Origin: a virus
Reading direction: 5' to 3' (one strand)
DNA length: 33,299 nucleotides
Virus record (IMG/VR): IMGVR_UViG_3300013101_000047
Location: 1-33,299 of that record
The position numbers and the translations under genes were made by a program. The stretch's first letter is position 1, and the number at the start of each line of letters is the position of its first letter. Below the pieces are notes generated by a model. That model made no database searches. It saw nothing but the letters and a program-made list of their open reading frames with translations, and had not been told where the DNA came from. Shown here piece after piece: positions 3,888 through 29,097 of this stretch.

Positions 3888-4205
3888 CTAGGCGAGGCCT
3901 GCTGTGAACTGGTCGAGGGACACGGTCCTGCCGATCTTCGGCGTCGGGACCGGCAGCACTTCACGCCACCATCCCGGCGGCGGCTCGTCGGATGCGACAG
4001 GGACCGCAGGCATCCCTGCGGCCGCCGACTCGGGTGCGTAGGCAGGCTCCCCGGCGAGGATGCCGAGGTCCGTTAGCAGCACGAGGAACTTCCTGTACCC
4101 GACTGGGTTGCCGTCGAAGCGGCCGCCCAGGTCCAGGATGTTGTAGTGCGCTGCGAAGCCTGCCTCGACCGCCGCCCATCGCTCCCTAAGTCGGACGGCG
4201 GTCAC
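3888..4205 (-). CDS. Tail assembly chaperone, frameshifted (T) part
   Basis: The 105-codon frame lies directly upstream of the tape measure gene. It contains an ERWAAVEAGFAAHYNILDL-type stretch followed by a short helical region and a Pro-rich linker, which is typical of the T part of G/GT tail assembly chaperones. It could start at GTG 4205, which overlaps the previous stop (TAGTG). However, it is in the -1 frame relative to that gene and is open back through a GGGGGAA run, so it is probably also made as a -1 frameshift extension of the upstream gene. The chaperone holds the tape measure protein while tail tube subunits polymerise. It is not expected in the virion. Confidence 0.75.
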   Translation of the reverse strand: MTAVRLRERWAAVEAGFAAHYNILDLGGRFDGNPVGYRKFLVLLTDLGILAGEPAYAPESAAAGMPAVPVASDEPPPGWWREVLPVPTPKIGRTVSLDQFTAGLA

Positions 4206-4429
4206 TATTCCCCCTCTACTGGTTCCTCCACGGACTCGAGCATGTTCTCGACGGAGGCTGCCATCTCAGCGGCGGCCTCCGCGATCGCTGTGTCCTCCGT
4301 TATGAGGAGCGCCTCTCGGAGTTCCTCGAGGATCGCAGAGACGGGTCGAACCCCGGCCTCGCGTCGCTTCCGATCCGGGTCGGAGAACAGGGACCAGTCC
4401 TCGAGCAAGTCGAGGTACATGGCGTCCAT
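4205..4429 (-). CDS. Tail assembly chaperone (G), C-terminal piece
   Basis: This 74-codon frame has an acidic helical sequence (start MDAMYLDLLEDWSLF, end VEEPVEGE). It lies in the same frame as the 81-codon gene upstream and is separated from it by only one TGA and one ACG codon. No convincing ribosome-binding site precedes its ATG at 4429. Position before the T part and the tape measure gene supports a tail assembly chaperone role. Joined to its upstream neighbour it would be a 157-residue protein, close to the usual size of G-type chaperones. It may therefore be the second half of one gene interrupted by TGA, or a separate translationally coupled gene. Confidence 0.6.
   Translation of the reverse strand: MDAMYLDLLEDWSLFSDPDRKRREAGVRPVSAILEELREALLITEDTAIAEAAAEMAASVENMLESVEEPVEGE
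4208..4214 (-). promoter_or_regulatory. Candidate -1 ribosomal frameshift site
   Basis: On the minus strand the last sense codons of the upstream chaperone frame are GAG GGG GAA followed by TAG, giving the heptamer G GGG GAA. A one-base backward slip moves translation into the 105-codon frame without meeting a stop (GGG GGA ATA GTG). Such slips at the end of G are a hallmark of siphophage tail chaperones. The heptamer is not a perfect X XXY YYZ: P-site pairing is preserved but the A-site re-pairing is imperfect. Confidence 0.5.
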
Positions 4430-4432
4430 CGT

Positions 4433-4678
4433 TCACGACCCGACTTTGGAGGCGAGCATCTGGTCGTAGGTTTCGTCGCCGAACACCAGCCGATAGTTTC
4501 GCTCCATCCGCTCGGCCTTCGTCTCGTCCTCCATCCGCTCCGGATTCGTGTTGTAGTCGATCCATTCGAGCGCCTGAGCAATCGGTGCCTCGGGCGTGAA
4601 CTCGAACGTCGTCTGGTTCGCGATGAACCGGAGCGGCGACGGGTCGAGGAGGTCGTCGTAGTTACGGAGTCGTCCCAC
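4433..4678 (-). CDS. Tail assembly chaperone (G), N-terminal piece
   Basis: An 81-residue protein starting at GTG 4678. A GAGGT ribosome-binding site overlaps the end of the major tail gene (GAGGTGTAACGGTG). The sequence is mixed and charged (GRLRNYDDLLDPSPLRF near the start, FGDETYDQMLASKVGS at the end). Gene order (major tail, this, chaperone pieces, tape measure) places it as the start of the G chaperone. Its stop is a TGA followed by ACG and then an in-frame ATG, so suppression of the TGA would fuse it to the following 74-codon frame. No catalytic residues are expected. The role is inferred from position. Confidence 0.65.
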   Translation of the reverse strand: MGRLRNYDDLLDPSPLRFIANQTTFEFTPEAPIAQALEWIDYNTNPERMEDETKAERMERNYRLVFGDETYDQMLASKVGS

Positions 4679-4680
4679 CG

Positions 4681-5238
4681 TTACACCTCGTCGATGACGT
4701 CGTAGATGGCGCCGGAGGCCGGGATGATCGCCCGGAAGTCGATGGCCAAGACCGTGATGGTCGGAGCCTTCGCATGCGCCGCTTCGACGGTGCCGGTCGG
4801 TGTCACCCTCGGGACACGAATGTCACGCAACTTCGTGCCGTCCCCTGGAGGTGCAAGCACCCGGAGGAGGAGCGAGTACTCGGTGAACGCAGACGACGCC
4901 GGAGGCGTATAGGTGCTCTGGCCGACGGCCGGAGTGTCTGTCTGGATCGTTCCACCGCCGAATGCGATCTGCAGGTTCTCGAGCGACGCCTGAGCGGCGG
5001 CACCCTGGACCCGGATCTCCTGGGCGGTCTTGAGGACGCGGAGAGCGTCGACTTCTTCGGCGACGACCACGTCCTCGAAGGTGCGGTCGACAACGAATTT
5101 CCAGCCCTCTTCGGAGTAGCCGATGTCTTCCCAGTTCCCTGCCGGTGTGACGGACGGGTCTGTGGGGAAGGCTTCTCCGAGTGGGGCCATATAGAGCGTG
5201 CCAGTTCCAACCAGCACTTCAAGAGCATCGCGGGCCAT
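4681..5238 (-). CDS. Major tail (tube) protein
   Basis: A 185-residue protein that would polymerise as hexameric rings into the tail tube. The sequence (MARDALEVLVGTGTLYMAPL, then GWKFVVDRTFEDVVVAEEVD) is typical of phage tube subunits, with an N-terminal arm followed by a beta-barrel. An upstream in-frame extension exists, but ATG at 5238 is chosen because AAGGAG lies at correct spacing and the protein-like sequence begins there. The gene opens the tail module. A GGCACR-N24-TACCAT element lies about 70 bases upstream, so tail genes can be transcribed independently of the plus-strand cassette behind it. Confidence 0.9.
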   Translation of the reverse strand: MARDALEVLVGTGTLYMAPLGEAFPTDPSVTPAGNWEDIGYSEEGWKFVVDRTFEDVVVAEEVDALRVLKTAQEIRVQGAAAQASLENLQIAFGGGTIQTDTPAVGQSTYTPPASSAFTEYSLLLRVLAPPGDGTKLRDIRVPRVTPTGTVEAAHAKAPTITVLAIDFRAIIPASGAIYDVIDEV

Positions 5239-5312: not shown

Positions 5313-5348
5313 ATGGTAAGACTCTCGGCTCCGGTAGTAGACCGTGCC
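5313..5348 (-). promoter_or_regulatory. Late promoter-like element upstream of tail module
   Basis: Read on the minus strand, GGCACG is followed after exactly 24 bases by TACCAT. The same pair with the same spacing occurs at 13042-13077 and 20530-20565, each upstream of a structural gene. The predicted start (about 5306) leaves a leader of about 68 bases before the major tail gene. It is back to back with the plus-strand accessory promoter. Confidence 0.65.
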
Positions 5349-5358
5349 CCTGGCCGAC

Positions 5359-5396
5359 TAGATAGACTTGACGTAGCGTGGCGGCTGTGGTATCTT
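5359..5396 (+). promoter_or_regulatory. Accessory promoter P1
   Basis: The conserved element TAGATAGACTTGACG contains the -35 (TTGACG, 5368). It is followed by a 17-base spacer and the -10 TATCTT (5391-5396). The predicted +1 at 5403 is the G of a GTG codon that is in frame with the first gene of the plus-strand cassette. Confidence 0.8.
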
Positions 5397-5432
5397 GTCC
5401 CTGTGAACGAAGCCACCACACCAGGAGCCACC

Positions 5433-5573
5433 ATGCAGACCACCACCATCTTCCGCCCCTACGACGGCCGGGCCATCGCCGAGCGCATGACGGACGCCGA
5501 AGGCATCCGCTGGGAGCGCCGCCTGCTCCTCAACGGGCCGGGCCACTGGTACGTCATCGGAAACGACAACTAG
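5433..5573 (+). CDS. Small accessory protein, unknown function
   Basis: A 46-residue protein (starts MQTTTIFRPYDGRAIAERMT, ends HWYVIGNDN) and the first gene of the plus-strand cassette. ATG at 5433 is preceded by AGGAGCCACC, the recurrent ribosome-binding arrangement of accessory genes in this phage. A second possible start is the GTG at 5403, which lies at the predicted transcription start and adds the in-frame residues MNEATTPGAT. The sequence resembles small host-interaction or regulatory morons but matches no family I recognise. It is followed at short distance by another gene of the same cassette. Confidence 0.65.
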   Translation: MQTTTIFRPYDGRAIAERMTDAEGIRWERRLLLNGPGHWYVIGNDN

Positions 5574-5581
5574 GAGCCACC

Positions 5582-5803
5582 ATGCCCTTCCCACTACAGA
5601 CCGAACCCACCACCATCACCTACCCGACCGACCGGGACATCCTGGTCAACTGCCCGACCGCCGCCTTCGACACGCATGCCAACTCGATCGCCGCCGCCAG
5701 GCTCTGCGCCGACGGCATCGACTGCTTCTGGCAGGCAGCCTGGGAGAACGACGACGAAGGCTGGACCGTCGCCTGGACCCGCACCGACCCGGAGGACGAA
5801 TAG
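5582..5803 (+). CDS. Small accessory protein, unknown function
   Basis: A 73-residue acidic protein (start MPFPLQTEPTTITYPTDRD, with CFWQAAWENDDEGWTVAW near the C-terminus). ATG at 5582 follows AGGAGCCACC, whose first bases overlap the end of the previous gene. Two cysteines (42 and 48) and several tryptophans suggest a compact fold, but no family is recognised. It is co-transcribed with its neighbours from P1 and lies one base before the next start. Confidence 0.6.
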   Translation: MPFPLQTEPTTITYPTDRDILVNCPTAAFDTHANSIAAARLCADGIDCFWQAAWENDDEGWTVAWTRTDPEDE

Positions 5804-5804
5804 C

Positions 5805-6146
5805 ATGGTCGACCGGGACGCCATCGCAGCCCGCTACCACGACGACGGCGCCACCGCCGAGTCGATAGCAGCGGAGGAAGGAGTCACCGTCCGCTCCGTC
5901 TATCGCTGGATGACGCAGGCCGGTCGCCCTGCCAATACGAGCAACGCCACACCGTTCGCCCCGAGGCGACGAGTAGCGGCGCCCATCGACCCGGACGAGA
6001 TCGCCGCCGGAGCGACGTACCGGATCCAGGGACACGGCAGGTCGAAGTTCAAAGCCATCGAACGGTTCGGCGACGAAGGCTGGCGCTTCTACTCGGAGGA
6101 CACGATGAAGCACCACGCCTTCCGCAACGGGACGGTGCTGAGATGA
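5805..6146 (+). CDS. Helix-turn-helix protein
   Basis: A 113-residue protein with an N-terminal helix-turn-helix of the resolvase/transposase-like type (residues about 4-42: DAIAARYHDDGATAESIAAE, then GVTVRSVYRWMTQAGRP). After a Pro/Arg-rich linker the C-terminal part (about 63-113) is a small basic domain (YRIQGHGRSKFKAIERF) that may form a second nucleic-acid or protein-binding unit. It is probably a DNA-binding regulator of the cassette or of host genes; the target is unknown. Its stop overlaps the next start as ATGA. Confidence 0.7.
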   Translation: MVDRDAIAARYHDDGATAESIAAEEGVTVRSVYRWMTQAGRPANTSNATPFAPRRRVAAPIDPDEIAAGATYRIQGHGRSKFKAIERFGDEGWRFYSEDTMKHHAFRNGTVLR

Positions 6147-6679
6147 GCAGCGGACCGATCCTCGTCGGCAAGTTCAAGACGGCGGTCATCGACACCGCCC
6201 TCGAGATCGGCAACATCAACTGGCCTCGCACCTTCGGACACGGCGAAGGGTACTGCATCCCGATCGCCGTATTCGCAGCGGCGTTCCTGACGGCTCGAGG
6301 CTTCGAAGCCCGACCGGCGGAGGCCGCCGCCCGCTTCGACGACCCTGCGGACGCTGGCTACGCACTCGTCGGCGACCGGGACGCTCCACCGGAAGCGTTC
6401 TGCGGTCACCTCGTCGTGTGGGTTCCCGCTCGGAAAGCGGTCATCGACTTCTCCCTGCAGACGCAGGAGTCGAGGATCCTCCGCAACCTGGGAGCGCCGC
6501 CGGTCCTCACCGGGACCGTCGATCACACGACGGACAAGTACTGGTTCGACGGGCCGCTCGGTAGGGGACGAGCCACCTACGAGTTGCTGCCGAAGAGGCG
6601 CGGGTGGAAGGCTCGAGACTGGCCGTTCGAATTCATACGCTCGGAAGCACGCCGGGCCGCGACAAGGAGTGATCGATGA
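6143..6679 (+). CDS. Putative transglutaminase/papain-like fold protein
   Basis: A 178-residue protein with the residue order Cys38 (GEGYCIP), His89 (FCGHLVVW) and Asp102 (AVIDFSLQTQ). A Cys at the start of a helix followed by His and Asp on strands is the arrangement seen in transglutaminase-like and papain-like cysteine enzymes. That makes a thiol amidase, peptidase or acyl-transfer activity possible, but this is pattern reading only and the substrate is unknown. It is coupled on both sides by ATGA overlaps, so it is made in proportion to the HTH protein and the zinc protein. An accessory role against host or competing phage is plausible but untested. Confidence 0.5.
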   Translation: MSSGPILVGKFKTAVIDTALEIGNINWPRTFGHGEGYCIPIAVFAAAFLTARGFEARPAEAAARFDDPADAGYALVGDRDAPPEAFCGHLVVWVPARKAVIDFSLQTQESRILRNLGAPPVLTGTVDHTTDKYWFDGPLGRGRATYELLPKRRGWKARDWPFEFIRSEARRAATRSDR

Positions 6680-6825
6680 GCAACGACCGCTGCTTCATCT
6701 GCGACGACCGGACCGACGGCGAGCAGGAGGGTTTCTCCGCCGACCTGGTTCTGCTGCCGGGCCTCGAGTGCCCGGTCCTGGTCTGCGGCAATTGCATCCT
6801 CCGAGCCGAGCGCCGGGCCGAATAG
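6676..6825 (+). CDS. Small zinc-ribbon-like protein
   Basis: A 49-residue protein with two CxxC pairs (CFIC at 6-9 and CGNC near 37-40), which would bind one zinc ion. The start ATG at 6676 overlaps the preceding stop as ATGA. The stop TAG (6823-6825) is the first three bases of the conserved element of promoter P2. Such mini zinc ribbons are common in phage accessory regions, often as protein-binding or transcription-modulating factors. No specific function can be assigned. Confidence 0.65.
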   Translation: MSNDRCFICDDRTDGEQEGFSADLVLLPGLECPVLVCGNCILRAERRAE

Positions 6826-6860
6826 ATAGACTTGACGTAGCGTGGCGGCGGAGGTATGGT
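6823..6860 (+). promoter_or_regulatory. Accessory promoter P2
   Basis: TAGATAGACTTGACG carries the -35 at 6832-6837. A 17-base spacer and -10 TATGGT (6855-6860) follow. The predicted +1 at 6867 is the G of a GTG in frame with the gene starting at 6912. The TAG at its left end is the stop codon of the previous gene. Confidence 0.8.
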
Positions 6861-6911
6861 TCGGTCGTGAACGAAACAGCCACCAACCCGGACCCAGGCA
6901 AAGGAGCCACC

Positions 6912-7172
6912 ATGCAGACCTTCGTAACAGCCACCAACTGGAACGTCTCCTACTCGGACTCGAGCGACACCGACTACGTCGAACTCAACGTCTTCTACAT
7001 CGACTACGAGGCCGAGAACGAATGGGGAGGCCACGGAGTACCCATCCACCATCCCGAGTACAACGGCCTCCGCTTTCCGATCACGACGACCTCGAGGGAC
7101 GCCATCGACGCAGCCCGAGACTTCGCAAACTCCGTAGGACTCATCAAGGTCTACGAGCCACTCGCTCGCTAG
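6912..7172 (+). CDS. Accessory protein, unknown function
   Basis: An 86-residue acidic protein (start MQTFVTATNWNVSYSDSSDT; C-terminus DFANSVGLIKVYEPLAR). ATG at 6912 is preceded by AAAGGAGCCACC. An in-frame GTG at 6867, exactly at the predicted +1, would add the residues MNETATNPDPGKGAT. It is the last gene of the plus-strand cassette and is followed immediately by a strong hairpin. It has no recognisable domain; the alternation of polar and aromatic residues suggests a small beta/alpha fold. Confidence 0.6.
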   Translation: MQTFVTATNWNVSYSDSSDTDYVELNVFYIDYEAENEWGGHGVPIHHPEYNGLRFPITTTSRDAIDAARDFANSVGLIKVYEPLAR

Positions 7173-7334: not shown

Positions 7335-7670
7335 TCACGCCTTGAGGTGCTTCGTGATCCGGCCGAGCAGTTCAGCCTTCGTACCGGACGTCTTGAGGTC
7401 GAGCGTCTCCGCTGCCCGGCGCAGGTCCTTGACGCCGAGCGTCGGAAGGTCCTCGAGTCGGACGGCGACCTTCTCCGGCGGCGGCGGAGCGTCGGCGAGA
7501 AGGATGAACGTCTGGTGGCGCGACGAATGCTGCCGGGTGCGACGGGTCTGCAGGTCGTCCCACTCGGCGTCCTTGACCTTCATCGTCTCGCCAAAGACGA
7601 GCGTCCGGTCCTCGTCGATGCGAGCGGAGTAGATGCTCCACAAGCGCGGGTTGATTTGAATTGTCTGCAT
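7335..7670 (-). CDS. SAP-domain protein of the neck/tail module
   Basis: A 111-residue protein. Its C-terminal part (about 75-111, LPTLGVKDLRRAAETLDL, then GTKAELLGRITKHL) reads as a SAP/LEM-like helix-extended-helix module, generally a nucleic-acid or protein binding fold. The N-terminal 70 residues are charged and unassigned. ATG at 7670 follows AGGAG. It is the last gene of the head-to-tail minus-strand run before the plus cassette. A second protein with the same type of C-terminal module lies upstream of the capsid connector genes (9658-9966). The role in the virion is unknown. Confidence 0.65.
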   Translation of the reverse strand: MQTIQINPRLWSIYSARIDEDRTLVFGETMKVKDAEWDDLQTRRTRQHSSRHQTFILLADAPPPPEKVAVRLEDLPTLGVKDLRRAAETLDLKTSGTKAELLGRITKHLKA

Positions 7671-14584: not shown

Positions 14585-14622
14585 AACGTACCTCGCCCCG
14601 GCGTATACGTCAAGTCTATCTA
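14585..14622 (-). promoter_or_regulatory. Accessory promoter P3
   Basis: On the minus strand TAGATAGACTTGACG contains the -35 (14613-14608). A 17-base spacer and -10 TACGTT (14590-14585) follow. The predicted +1 at 14578 is the G of a GTG in frame with the gene that starts at 14533. Confidence 0.8.
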
Positions 14623-14762
14623 TCCGGTCGGGTGGGGTTGGGAAGAGCAACGACCGAAGCGGCCTCCGTACTCCCTGGGCGAGCCACCAAGCACACCTGG
14701 GAGCAGCGAATGGAGGACCGCTCCGGCCGTCTACCCGATGGCCACCATAGACACCGGGCCGG

Positions 14763-14834
14763 TAGCGGTGGGAGGACTCGAACCTCCGACCTGTGGATTA
14801 TGAGTCCACCGCGCTGCCTCTGCGCCACACCGCG
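14763..14834 (-). tRNA. tRNA with CAU anticodon (Met or Ile2)
   Basis: A 72-base cloverleaf on the minus strand. The D stem is GCGC/GCGC, the anticodon stem GTGGA/TCCAC with loop CTCATAA (anticodon CAT), and the T stem GGAGG/CCTCC with loop TTCGAGT. The acceptor stem pairs in six of seven positions, with C1 opposite T72. The anticodon stem lacks the three G-C pairs of initiators, so it is elongator Met, or Ile2 if the C is lysidinylated. The CCA end is not fully encoded. It lies between a head gene and a moron operon. Confidence 0.9.
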
Positions 14835-22205: not shown

Positions 22206-22411
22206 ACCGGCTCGATCTCGACGATCGCTACTTCACCGTCCGGGCCGTCCAACACGATCTGCAGGTACCGGATGTCGTATCCGTCGTCCTCGAAGTCGTC
22301 TGCGATGGTGCCGTTCTGGTTGATGGCCTCCGCTCGAGCGTCGGTCTCCGACATCGGTTCGGAGAACGTCCACGTCTTGCCATCGAATGTGTTGACCCGG
22401 TATTCAGCCAC
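22202..22411 (-). CDS. Small protein between portal and surface proteins
   Basis: A 69-residue acidic protein (start MAEYRVNTFDGKTWTFSEPM; end GPDGEVAIVEIEPV). It starts at GTG 22411, preceded by AGGAGG that overlaps the portal stop region, so it is coupled to portal translation. The sequence suggests a small alpha/beta fold. Tiny genes here often encode portal- or capsid-accessory proteins; no specific role is claimed. Confidence 0.6.
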   Translation of the reverse strand: MAEYRVNTFDGKTWTFSEPMSETDARAEAINQNGTIADDFEDDGYDIRYLQIVLDGPDGEVAIVEIEPV

Positions 22412-22420
22412 GGCAGCCTC

Positions 22421-23797
22421 CTACTCGTCGTCTGGTGTCGGCTCGTCAACGAAGCCCTCGAGCGGCAGCGGCAGGTCCGCGACCTCTAGGAGTTTCGCCT
22501 GCAGCAGTTCGTTGGGGAACAGCGGCATACCGACGTCGGCGAGCGCTTTCATGTAGGCGCCGAGTTCGGCGAGGTTCGGAGTCTCGATGTCGCCGTGCGT
22601 GAGTTGCGGCAGCACGTCGACCGGGCGGCCGTTCAAAGCGAACAGGCGCGGGATCAAGTCTCGGTTGAAAACGTCTGCGATCATGTCGAGCCAGCCGGTG
22701 ATGGCGACGGAGAACACGTCGGTCTTGGAGTCGGCGAGAGCGAACGACCCGACCTTCTCGTGTCCCAGGAGGATGAAGTCGGCGAGGACGGTCGTCGCTA
22801 TTTCCTGGTTCTTGCGGCGGATCACGTCGTTGGTATCTATCTGCCTCGACCCGCCGGTCGACAGCAGTTCGAGGTCGTAGAGGTTCTTCCCGTTGGCGTC
22901 GAACTCGTTAGGCATGACGATGCCCTCGATGGCGTCCCGGCGGAGGTCCCGGACGGTGCGGCGCCACCCGTCGAGCGCTGACTTCTCTGCGGCGGTCGCG
23001 GTGGCGGCGAAGAAGCGTGCGGGGATGCGGGCGACTGGGAGGCCTGCCAGTTCCCTCTCGATTCCGATGGCCTCGATCTCCTCGATGGTCTTCTTGAAGT
23101 ACCAGGGTCGGTATGCGTTGCGGAGGACGCTGCGGCCCTCCGGGTTGTCCTTGTGGAGCGACGTTCGAAAGAGGCCGAACTTGACGGCGGGGATGGTCCT
23201 CGGCGTCCAGGTCGGTGGCGGCTGCTGCTCGAGCGCTATGAGGTCGCCGGTGCGGTCGTTGAAGATCCAGTCGGTGATTGTGTCTTGGCCTCGGATGGGG
23301 AGTTTCCGCCAGCCGACCTGGCCGTCGTTGTATGCGGAGCGTGCGACGGTCGGTGCCGACGGGTCGTCCGGGTCCGGGGTAGCGCCGGGCGGGTTCGGGC
23401 CGGAGCGTTTCTTGTAGACGATCTCGTGCGGGGAGAAGCCGTAGACCATCATCGACATGATCTCGGAGATGGTGGCGGTGAACGGCTGCTCCATATCGTG
23501 GAGGTTCGAGTCGAGGAAGTCGGCGTCGGCTGCGGCGGCCGGTGTCGTGTCTGCAGATTCGGCCTTCCAGTCGACCTGCCGGATGAGCATGTCGATGGCG
23601 AAGAGCATGCCGCCGACGATCGGATCGTTGGACGACATTTCCTGGTAGATCTGTGCGGCCCTGGGTCCTTGGAGTTCGACCAGGAACTCTTCGGAGATGT
23701 GGCCGCCGGATCGGCGGAGGCCGGTCGCTCCGATCTCCATGTACTCGTCGGCTTCATCGACGGCGGCGGCGGTGACTGGCGTGGCGGAATCGCTCAT
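22421..23797 (-). CDS. Portal protein (Mu gp29/DUF935-like)
   Basis: A 458-residue protein that would form the dodecameric DNA gate at one capsid vertex. Typical segments: EFLVELQGPRAAQIYQEMSS, GGMLFAIDMLIRQVDWKAES, MEQPFTATISEIMSMMVYGF, SPHEIVYKKRSG, then GREL-type wing and stem regions. ATG at 23797 has no ribosome-binding site. A TACCCT box seven bases before the ATG, with the same geometry as at the protease gene, suggests leaderless translation. It is the first gene of the head module after the accessory region. Confidence 0.9.
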   Translation of the reverse strand: MSDSATPVTAAAVDEADEYMEIGATGLRRSGGHISEEFLVELQGPRAAQIYQEMSSNDPIVGGMLFAIDMLIRQVDWKAESADTTPAAAADADFLDSNLHDMEQPFTATISEIMSMMVYGFSPHEIVYKKRSGPNPPGATPDPDDPSAPTVARSAYNDGQVGWRKLPIRGQDTITDWIFNDRTGDLIALEQQPPPTWTPRTIPAVKFGLFRTSLHKDNPEGRSVLRNAYRPWYFKKTIEEIEAIGIERELAGLPVARIPARFFAATATAAEKSALDGWRRTVRDLRRDAIEGIVMPNEFDANGKNLYDLELLSTGGSRQIDTNDVIRRKNQEIATTVLADFILLGHEKVGSFALADSKTDVFSVAITGWLDMIADVFNRDLIPRLFALNGRPVDVLPQLTHGDIETPNLAELGAYMKALADVGMPLFPNELLQAKLLEVADLPLPLEGFVDEPTPDDE

Positions 23798-24644: not shown

Positions 24645-24682
24645 ACTGTACCTCTCCCCGGCGTATACGTCAAGTCTATCTA
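24645..24682 (-). promoter_or_regulatory. Accessory promoter P4
   Basis: On the minus strand TAGATAGACTTGACG carries the -35 (24673-24668). A 17-base spacer and -10 TACAGT (24650-24645) follow. The +1 at 24638 is the A of an ATG. The TAG at its start is the stop codon of the DpdA-like gene. Confidence 0.8.
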
Positions 24683-27797: not shown

Positions 27798-27835
27798 AAT
27801 GTACCTCGGGCCGCCAGGAGAGTCAAGTCTATCTA
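27798..27835 (-). promoter_or_regulatory. Accessory promoter P5 (DpdA operon)
   Basis: On the minus strand TAGATAGACTTGACT carries the -35 (27826-27821). A 17-base spacer and -10 TACATT (27803-27798) follow. It is the only copy without a start codon at the predicted +1 (27791). It drives eight overlapping genes ending with the transporter and DpdA-like gene. The TAG at its upstream end is the stop of the previous gene. Confidence 0.8.
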
Positions 27836-28063: not shown

Positions 28064-28102
28064 ACTGTACCTCGGGCGGTACCGTACCGTCAAGTCAATC
28101 TA
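28064..28102 (-). promoter_or_regulatory. Accessory promoter P6
   Basis: On the minus strand TAGATTGACTTGACG carries the -35 (28093-28088). An 18-base spacer and -10 TACAGT (28069-28064) follow. The +1 at 28057 is the A of an ATG. It lies six bases after the CCA end of the tRNA-like element. Confidence 0.75.
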
Positions 28103-29059: not shown

Positions 29060-29097
29060 AACATACCTCTGCCGTTCCTATACGTCAAGTCAATCTA
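29060..29097 (-). promoter_or_regulatory. Accessory promoter P7 (ncRNA)
   Basis: On the minus strand TAGATTGACTTGACG carries the -35 (29088-29083). A 17-base spacer and -10 TATGTT (29065-29060) follow. The predicted +1 at 29053 is the G of a GTG, but the frame it opens does not look coding. A short hairpin (AGGCCG/CGGCCT) overlapping the terminase stop lies just upstream. Confidence 0.8.

Follow-up and report, generated by a model that had tools for sequence, protein, structure and literature searches.

Two adjacent reading frames upstream of the tape measure gene of this virus, of 81 and 74 codons (ORF1 and ORF2), raise the question of whether they are two genes or one gene for a gpG-type tail assembly chaperone, cut by a single TGA. 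If they are one gene, it must further be asked whether the TGA is put to use by the phage or is a nonsense change. Here we address these questions in turn. The window, meaning the whole stretch of DNA analysed, comprises 33,299 bases and is the whole virus record. Coordinates of the features discussed are given in Table 1.

Table 1. Position of the interrupted G gene, its neighbours and other features (positions in the window unless a related contig is named)
Feature	Position	Strand	Evidence or remark
ORF1, N-terminal part of gpG-type chaperone, 81 aa	4433..4678	-	GTG start; SD-like GAGG upstream
In-frame TGA interrupting G	4433..4435	-	residue 82 of joined protein; second residue of last conserved helix
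C-terminal part of G (ACG codon, then ORF2)	4205..4432	-	last conserved helix and C-terminal tail
ORF2, 74 aa	4205-4429	-	ATG 4427-4429, TAG 4205-4207; no SD
GAG GGG GAA TAG, five-G run before G stop	4205..4216	-	putative non-canonical -1 slip site and/or SD for the GTG of T
ORF3, T domain, 105 aa	3888..4205	-	GTG start, -1 frame; match to T frame of a relative
Major tail protein	4681..5238	-	phrog_117, E=1.3e-11; Pfam Phage_TTP_17, E=1.5e-9
Tape measure protein, 1090 aa	597..3869	-	phrog_1533, E=2.2e-63; PhageMin_Tail, E=2.2e-29
TAGATAGACTTGAC copies	5359-5372, 6823-6836	+	
TAGATAGACTTGAC copies	14609-14622, 24669-24682, 27822-27835, 28089-28102, 29084-29097	-	
WCESRG ORF in relatives	L175, L176, L179 5313-5855; L181 5288-5854; L180 4784-5350		

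One frame on both sides of the TGA

The structural genes of the window (portal, major capsid protein, tail terminator, major tail protein and tape measure, the tail terminator assignment being weak at E 5.8e-5) lie on the minus strand. The record stops shortly past the tape measure gene and is therefore probably incomplete. The interrupted G gene and T are placed between the genes for the major tail protein and the tape measure protein.

The sequence-only reading had put ORF1 and ORF2 in one frame with TGA ACG as their sole separator, and its coordinates are confirmed. Joined, the two frames encode 157 residues if the TGA is taken as a residue, as it had calculated; its figure of about 262 residues for the frameshift product needs a small correction, given that a -1 slip on the G run would yield 156 + 107 = 263. 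In-frame codon usage is coding-like in both ORF1 and ORF2 (0.28 and 0.21 per codon, respectively), the other frames being negative.

In order to place the TGA among the other stops of the window, all 1073 stops on both strands and in all frames were scanned. While 235 of these are flanked by 40 open codons on each side, coding-like codon usage (more than 0.1 per codon) on both flanks is found at just three of the 1073, including the TGA of G; the other two, at 22421 and 3888, are ordinary gene junctions whose next start is preceded by an SD-like sequence. The TGA of G thus has no parallel among the stops of the window, which shows that the contig is not full of nonsense errors, frameshift breaks lying outside the scan. 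Since G is not one uninterrupted ORF, we class it as an interrupted G gene rather than as a proven working chaperone.

At the first of these two junctions a small in-frame ORF lies at ~22206-22423 (minus strand), right after the TAG stop of the portal gene and with GGAGG before its GTG start. This junction is an ordinary gene boundary and resembles a split gene by frame alone.

Relatives carry G as a single ORF

Searches of viral contigs made directly with ORF1 or ORF2 yielded no relatives, and ORF1, ORF2, T and the G of a relative found none in the phages collection. Related loci were instead reached through the major tail protein: five were found, and a three-sequence alignment then gave 150 viral loci, of which the best 80 share 41-54% identity with the window in the major tail protein. 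The same alignment matched nothing in genome contigs. Other routes were less productive. Relatives of the MCP (best 80 of 92) showed no match to the major tail protein of the window and a single match to the N-terminus of the tape measure protein, and in 12 of the tape measure relatives (best 80 of 581) that were viewed, the upstream ORFs look by eye like other gene types. Genes at the same place in Rhodococcus phage NiceHouse, Streptomyces phage Crosby and Microcystis phage Mwe-JY05 do not match the G profile and are not used here as homologues.

In 77 of the best 80 of the 150 loci, a single G ORF of 99-127 aa directly follows the major tail protein gene. The three exceptions are two loci cut by contig ends (L177 and L217) and one, L204, broken by an indel. 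The 77 complete loci of this set (best 80 of 150) contain just 45 distinct G sequences, so the related loci are not independent. An in-frame stop in G occurs in none of the 78 readable relatives (best 80 of 150 loci), nor does any of these 78 have two genes meeting at the boundary seen in the window, the arrangement that the sequence-only reading had named as speaking against a split gene. The G of the window is 14-26% identical to that of the relatives. Because the best 80 of the 150 loci reach at most 54% identity in the tail protein, the term private, as applied to the TGA below, holds at that distance.

Neighbouring genes were surveyed in the same way. The MTP of the relatives is free of in-frame stops in 80 of 80 cases over the last 510 bases of the match, and the T frames in 75 of 75 complete cases (both best 80 of 150 loci); errors of this type are accordingly rare. 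In L204 (1290-1380), an A run of G is one A longer than in L208, which breaks the gene within the helix that leads into the same inter-helix loop; broken G genes therefore do occur among such contigs. The tape measure ORF is at least 1036 aa long in 52 of 55 relatives; in L175, L176 and L181 it appears shorter within the DNA available. In five relatives the end of T is closely followed or overlapped by an ORF of 180-188 aa that contains a WCESRG stretch (Table 1) and looks transglycosylase-like by eye.

The two parts fit one protein family across the TGA

In a MAFFT alignment the TGA occupies a single gap-free column, located between the last two conserved helices, at which relatives have E, D, P, Q, N, K, T, S or A. 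Scored against the G profile of the relatives, ORF1 alone obtains 17.1 bits and the joined protein 25.8; the gain from joining is 8.7 bits, with the register kept. By itself, ORF2 obtains no significant score (-0.8, or -0.5 with the ACG codon). As a control, the 40 residues after the stop were shuffled in 3000 trials: none reached 25.8 bits (maximum 25.2, mean 15.6), and neither did any of 921 other protein segments from the window (maximum 19.8).

ORF2 is hydrophobic or aromatic at six helix positions, as are the relatives. Three misfits to the family are nevertheless apparent: the residue just before the stop is S (W, F or L in 45 of 45 relatives), D stands where 43 of 45 relatives have an aromatic residue, and S replaces the G of a YG pair kept in 44 of 45.

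The fold of the joined protein was predicted by AF2 with the TGA read as W and 44 relatives in the alignment. Mean pLDDT is 95 for residues 71-80 and 91 for residues 81-90 (79.2 overall; pTM 0.55), and the last helix of the conserved domain, residues 81-94, spans residue 82. The predicted model of one relative (L212) has the same order of elements, with the equivalent helix at 80-93; its best three matches in BFVD are annotated as tail assembly chaperones, the best having an E-value of 9.1e-5 and being the sole match below 0.001. PDB fold searches with the models of the window and of a relative returned no meaningful match, and a profile search of PDB sequences named no chaperone.

Family assignments come from the relatives. 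Of 45 G sequences scanned, 23 match phrog_6959, 'tail assembly chaperone' (best 1.2e-10), and two of 11 T sequences match phrog_5813, which has the same annotation. The window's own joined G matches no chaperone family in Pfam or PHROGs. Pfam DUF7426, which matches 24 of the 45 aligned members at E-values up to 0.05, gives a weak match to ORF1 (E 0.048, under the cut-off) that is absent with the joined protein.

Frame, register, synteny and uninterrupted relatives together point to ORF1 and ORF2 as two parts of one ancestral gpG gene. The proposal that a tail chaperone G is split by one TGA is hence supported by synteny, homologues, profile register and predicted fold alike.

It is also conceivable that ORF1 is a whole chaperone and ORF2 an unrelated small gene. 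The profile scores of the separate frames, 17.1 bits for ORF1 and nothing significant for ORF2, would allow this. However, in 77 of the 80 loci (best 80 of 150) the last helix and the frameshift end belong to the same ORF as the N-terminal part, the gain on joining was matched by no shuffle, and T is placed in the -1 frame after the end of ORF2, as it is after the end of G in the relatives. We regard two ordinary genes as very unlikely.

The end of G and the start of T

Ranked by E-value, ORF3 matches best to a T frame that a relative carries immediately downstream of its G (38% identity over 79 columns, E=3e-7). In the relatives T follows G in the -1 frame and is open for at least 80 codons in 75 of 75 complete cases (best 80 of 150 loci). 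The start of T in the window overlaps the stop of G as TAGTG.

A slippery heptamer is a usual, though not universal, feature of G/GT chaperone genes. ORF2 has no canonical XXXYYYZ heptamer in phase, only G GGG GAA: where 43 of 45 distinct relatives (best 80 of 150 loci) end G with CCCAAAA or CCCAAAC, the window has GGGGGAA. The assignment to the G/GT family is kept despite the absent heptamer because the heptamer is not universal and the other features of the family are present. G ends also deviate in two members of the family, inspected by eye: L183 has G GGA AAC in phase, and L174 has no clear heptamer. Owing to the G run, the GTG of T has the third-best anti-SD duplex of the ORFs scored (-11.1). 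RNA after the T junction has no unusual fold. Production of T may depend on slippage at the G run or on coupled initiation at its GTG.

Signals at the TGA

Signs of programming were looked for around the TGA. The absence of a ribosome-binding site before ORF2, noted from the sequence, is borne out: the best anti-SD duplex is -3.9 kcal/mol, which ranks 18th among the 26 ORFs scored and is equalled by 31.8% of 1000 random positions. The ATG of ORF2 sits three bases after the TGA, but an ATG is found within the next three codons at 21 of 137 codon positions of the G gene, so its proximity is unremarkable. RNA around the TGA is not more folded than shuffled sequences (z -0.76 and 0.03). The window has no suppressor tRNA; its only tRNA gene is a tRNA-Met (anticodon CAT; 14761-14834, minus strand), which lies among the structural genes. 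The stop context is UGA-A. No mark of programming is seen at the TGA, which is probably neither a conserved nor a programmed signal.

Explanations for the TGA

The three mechanisms originally offered for the TGA fare differently. Nothing specific speaks for programmed readthrough or coupled genes; a nonsense mutation, or an error in the sequence, fits best. We consider it probable that the TGA represents a private nonsense change in this assembled genome, whether real or a base error in the consensus, and infer that the change is non-functional. The single in-frame TGA would then cut gpG at the start of the last conserved helix, with gpT next in the -1 frame. If real, the change would probably mark a defective or minor variant; if phages with the TGA are viable, the downstream part would be made in small amounts, through reinitiation at the ATG or leakage at UGA-A.

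Two further considerations favor a nonsense change or error: the locus was picked out for looking odd, and the G of one relative (L204) is also broken. Weighing against it are the lack of any comparable stop elsewhere in the window, the rarity of such stops in neighbouring genes of the relatives, the ATG three bases after the stop and the leaky UGA-A context. The coding-like codon usage of ORF2 likewise fits continued expression. The lack of a score for ORF2 alone and the three misfits around the stop weigh against one gene carrying an error.

The most far-reaching alternative is that the chaperone works as pieces. The body of G would come from ORF1, while ORF2, initiated separately and with T fused or coupled to it, would supply the last helix and the link to T; stop and reinitiation, with or without leakage at UGA, would set the ratio of products, either replacing a weak -1 slip on a G run or adding to it. 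We hold this to be unlikely. Were both junctions to work by reinitiation, the chaperone would be made in three coupled pieces, the boldest of the readings considered here.

A functional split supposes that the TGA is fixed, that ORF1 ends there and that ribosomes reinitiate at the ATG, so that the last helix and tail of G (with a T fusion or a coupled T) form a second polypeptide docking onto ORF1. The position of the ATG would suit this, as would a break at the N-terminal end of a helix rather than within it, and ORF2 retains coding usage and most of the hydrophobic pattern. Passages of PMC6728339 describe termination-reinitiation as widespread and its need for an SD as variable: removal of the SD abolished reinitiation in only one of 12 pairs tested. 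In most of the pairs covered there, however, removal lowered reinitiation (PMC6728339), and ORF2 has no SD. Moreover, a start falls within three codons after ~15-20% of the codons of this gene, an in-frame stop splits none of the 78 readable relatives (best 80 of 150 loci), and AF2 gives one confident stretch over the stop. A functional split is therefore unlikely.

Readthrough, in which tRNA-Trp would read UGA-A at low frequency to give a little full-length G and GT, with ORF1 as the major, third product, appears less likely still. UGA-A is reported to be prone to such misreading in E. coli (PMC5289835), frame and register are the same on both sides of the stop, and the residue at this position differs widely among relatives. 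Yet full-length G would become a minor product, whereas lambda needs G and GT at about 30:1 (reported in PMC5009743); neither a stimulatory RNA fold nor a suppressor tRNA is present in the window, and the stop is conserved in 0 of 78 readable relatives (best 80 of 150 loci). Finally, reassignment of TGA to a residue in the phage or its host, which would make G a single ORF, can be set aside: it is contradicted by stop usage, TGA ending 13 of the other 25 ORFs scored as genes, and the window has no matching tRNA.

A practical point follows for annotation. If the TGA is an error, caution is called for, and both parts should be recorded as one interrupted gene.

Small ORFs and a repeat elsewhere in the window

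Small ORFs on the plus strand (5313-7172) lie in the interval from a SAP-domain gene (7335-7670) to the gene for the major tail protein in the minus-strand structural operon; these are perhaps a cassette with its own promoters. The sequence TAGATAGACTTGAC occurs seven times in the window with up to two mismatches allowed, against 0.10 expected. In the copies at 5359 and 24669, viewed by eye, a -10-like TATCTT or TACAGT lies 17 bases after TTGACG. The repeat may serve small gene cassettes on both strands as a promoter or operator. A longer exact form of TAGATAGACTTGAC is present in one other viral contig (L254), which has no further similarity to the window by blastn or tblastn.

Comparison with known systems

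One close counterpart is an uncultured viral G/GT family (L174-L253), members of which match phrog_6959, phrog_5813 and Pfam DUF7426. The window resembles it in upstream neighbor, in the predicted order of elements and in the T motif, W..(V/I)E..F...Y and (Y/W)RKF..L, but differs in that the family has a single G ORF in 77 complete cases (best 80 of 150 loci). Streptomyces phages Zuko and Gilgamesh have an annotated G and a joined GT directly before the tape measure gene. Their G proteins score weakly against the same G profile (13.3 and 14.2 bits, respectively) and are uninterrupted, at 124 and 177 aa, in contrast to that of the window.

In lambda the G/GT genes adjoin the tape measure gene, and so they do here. 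The likeness extends to T, which in lambda occupies the -1 frame close to where G ends (gpG/gpGT; PMC5009743); unlike lambda, the G of the window is interrupted by a TGA, and ORF2 has no canonical heptamer in phase. G and GT are reported to be needed in a set ratio for tail assembly (PMC5009743, PMC4493119).

The searched portions of the open-licence literature contain no natural stop inside G. A related case is a stop mutant of gpG in TP901-1, a siphophage gpG stop as in the window, but an engineered one (PMC4493119). In the account given there, MTP and Dit went undetected, and capsids and aggregates were seen, a phenotype suggesting lethality for a plain null G. If a viable phage carrying a stop within G exists, it would mean either that there is a second way of setting the G/GT ratio, or that G tolerates a cut before its last helix.
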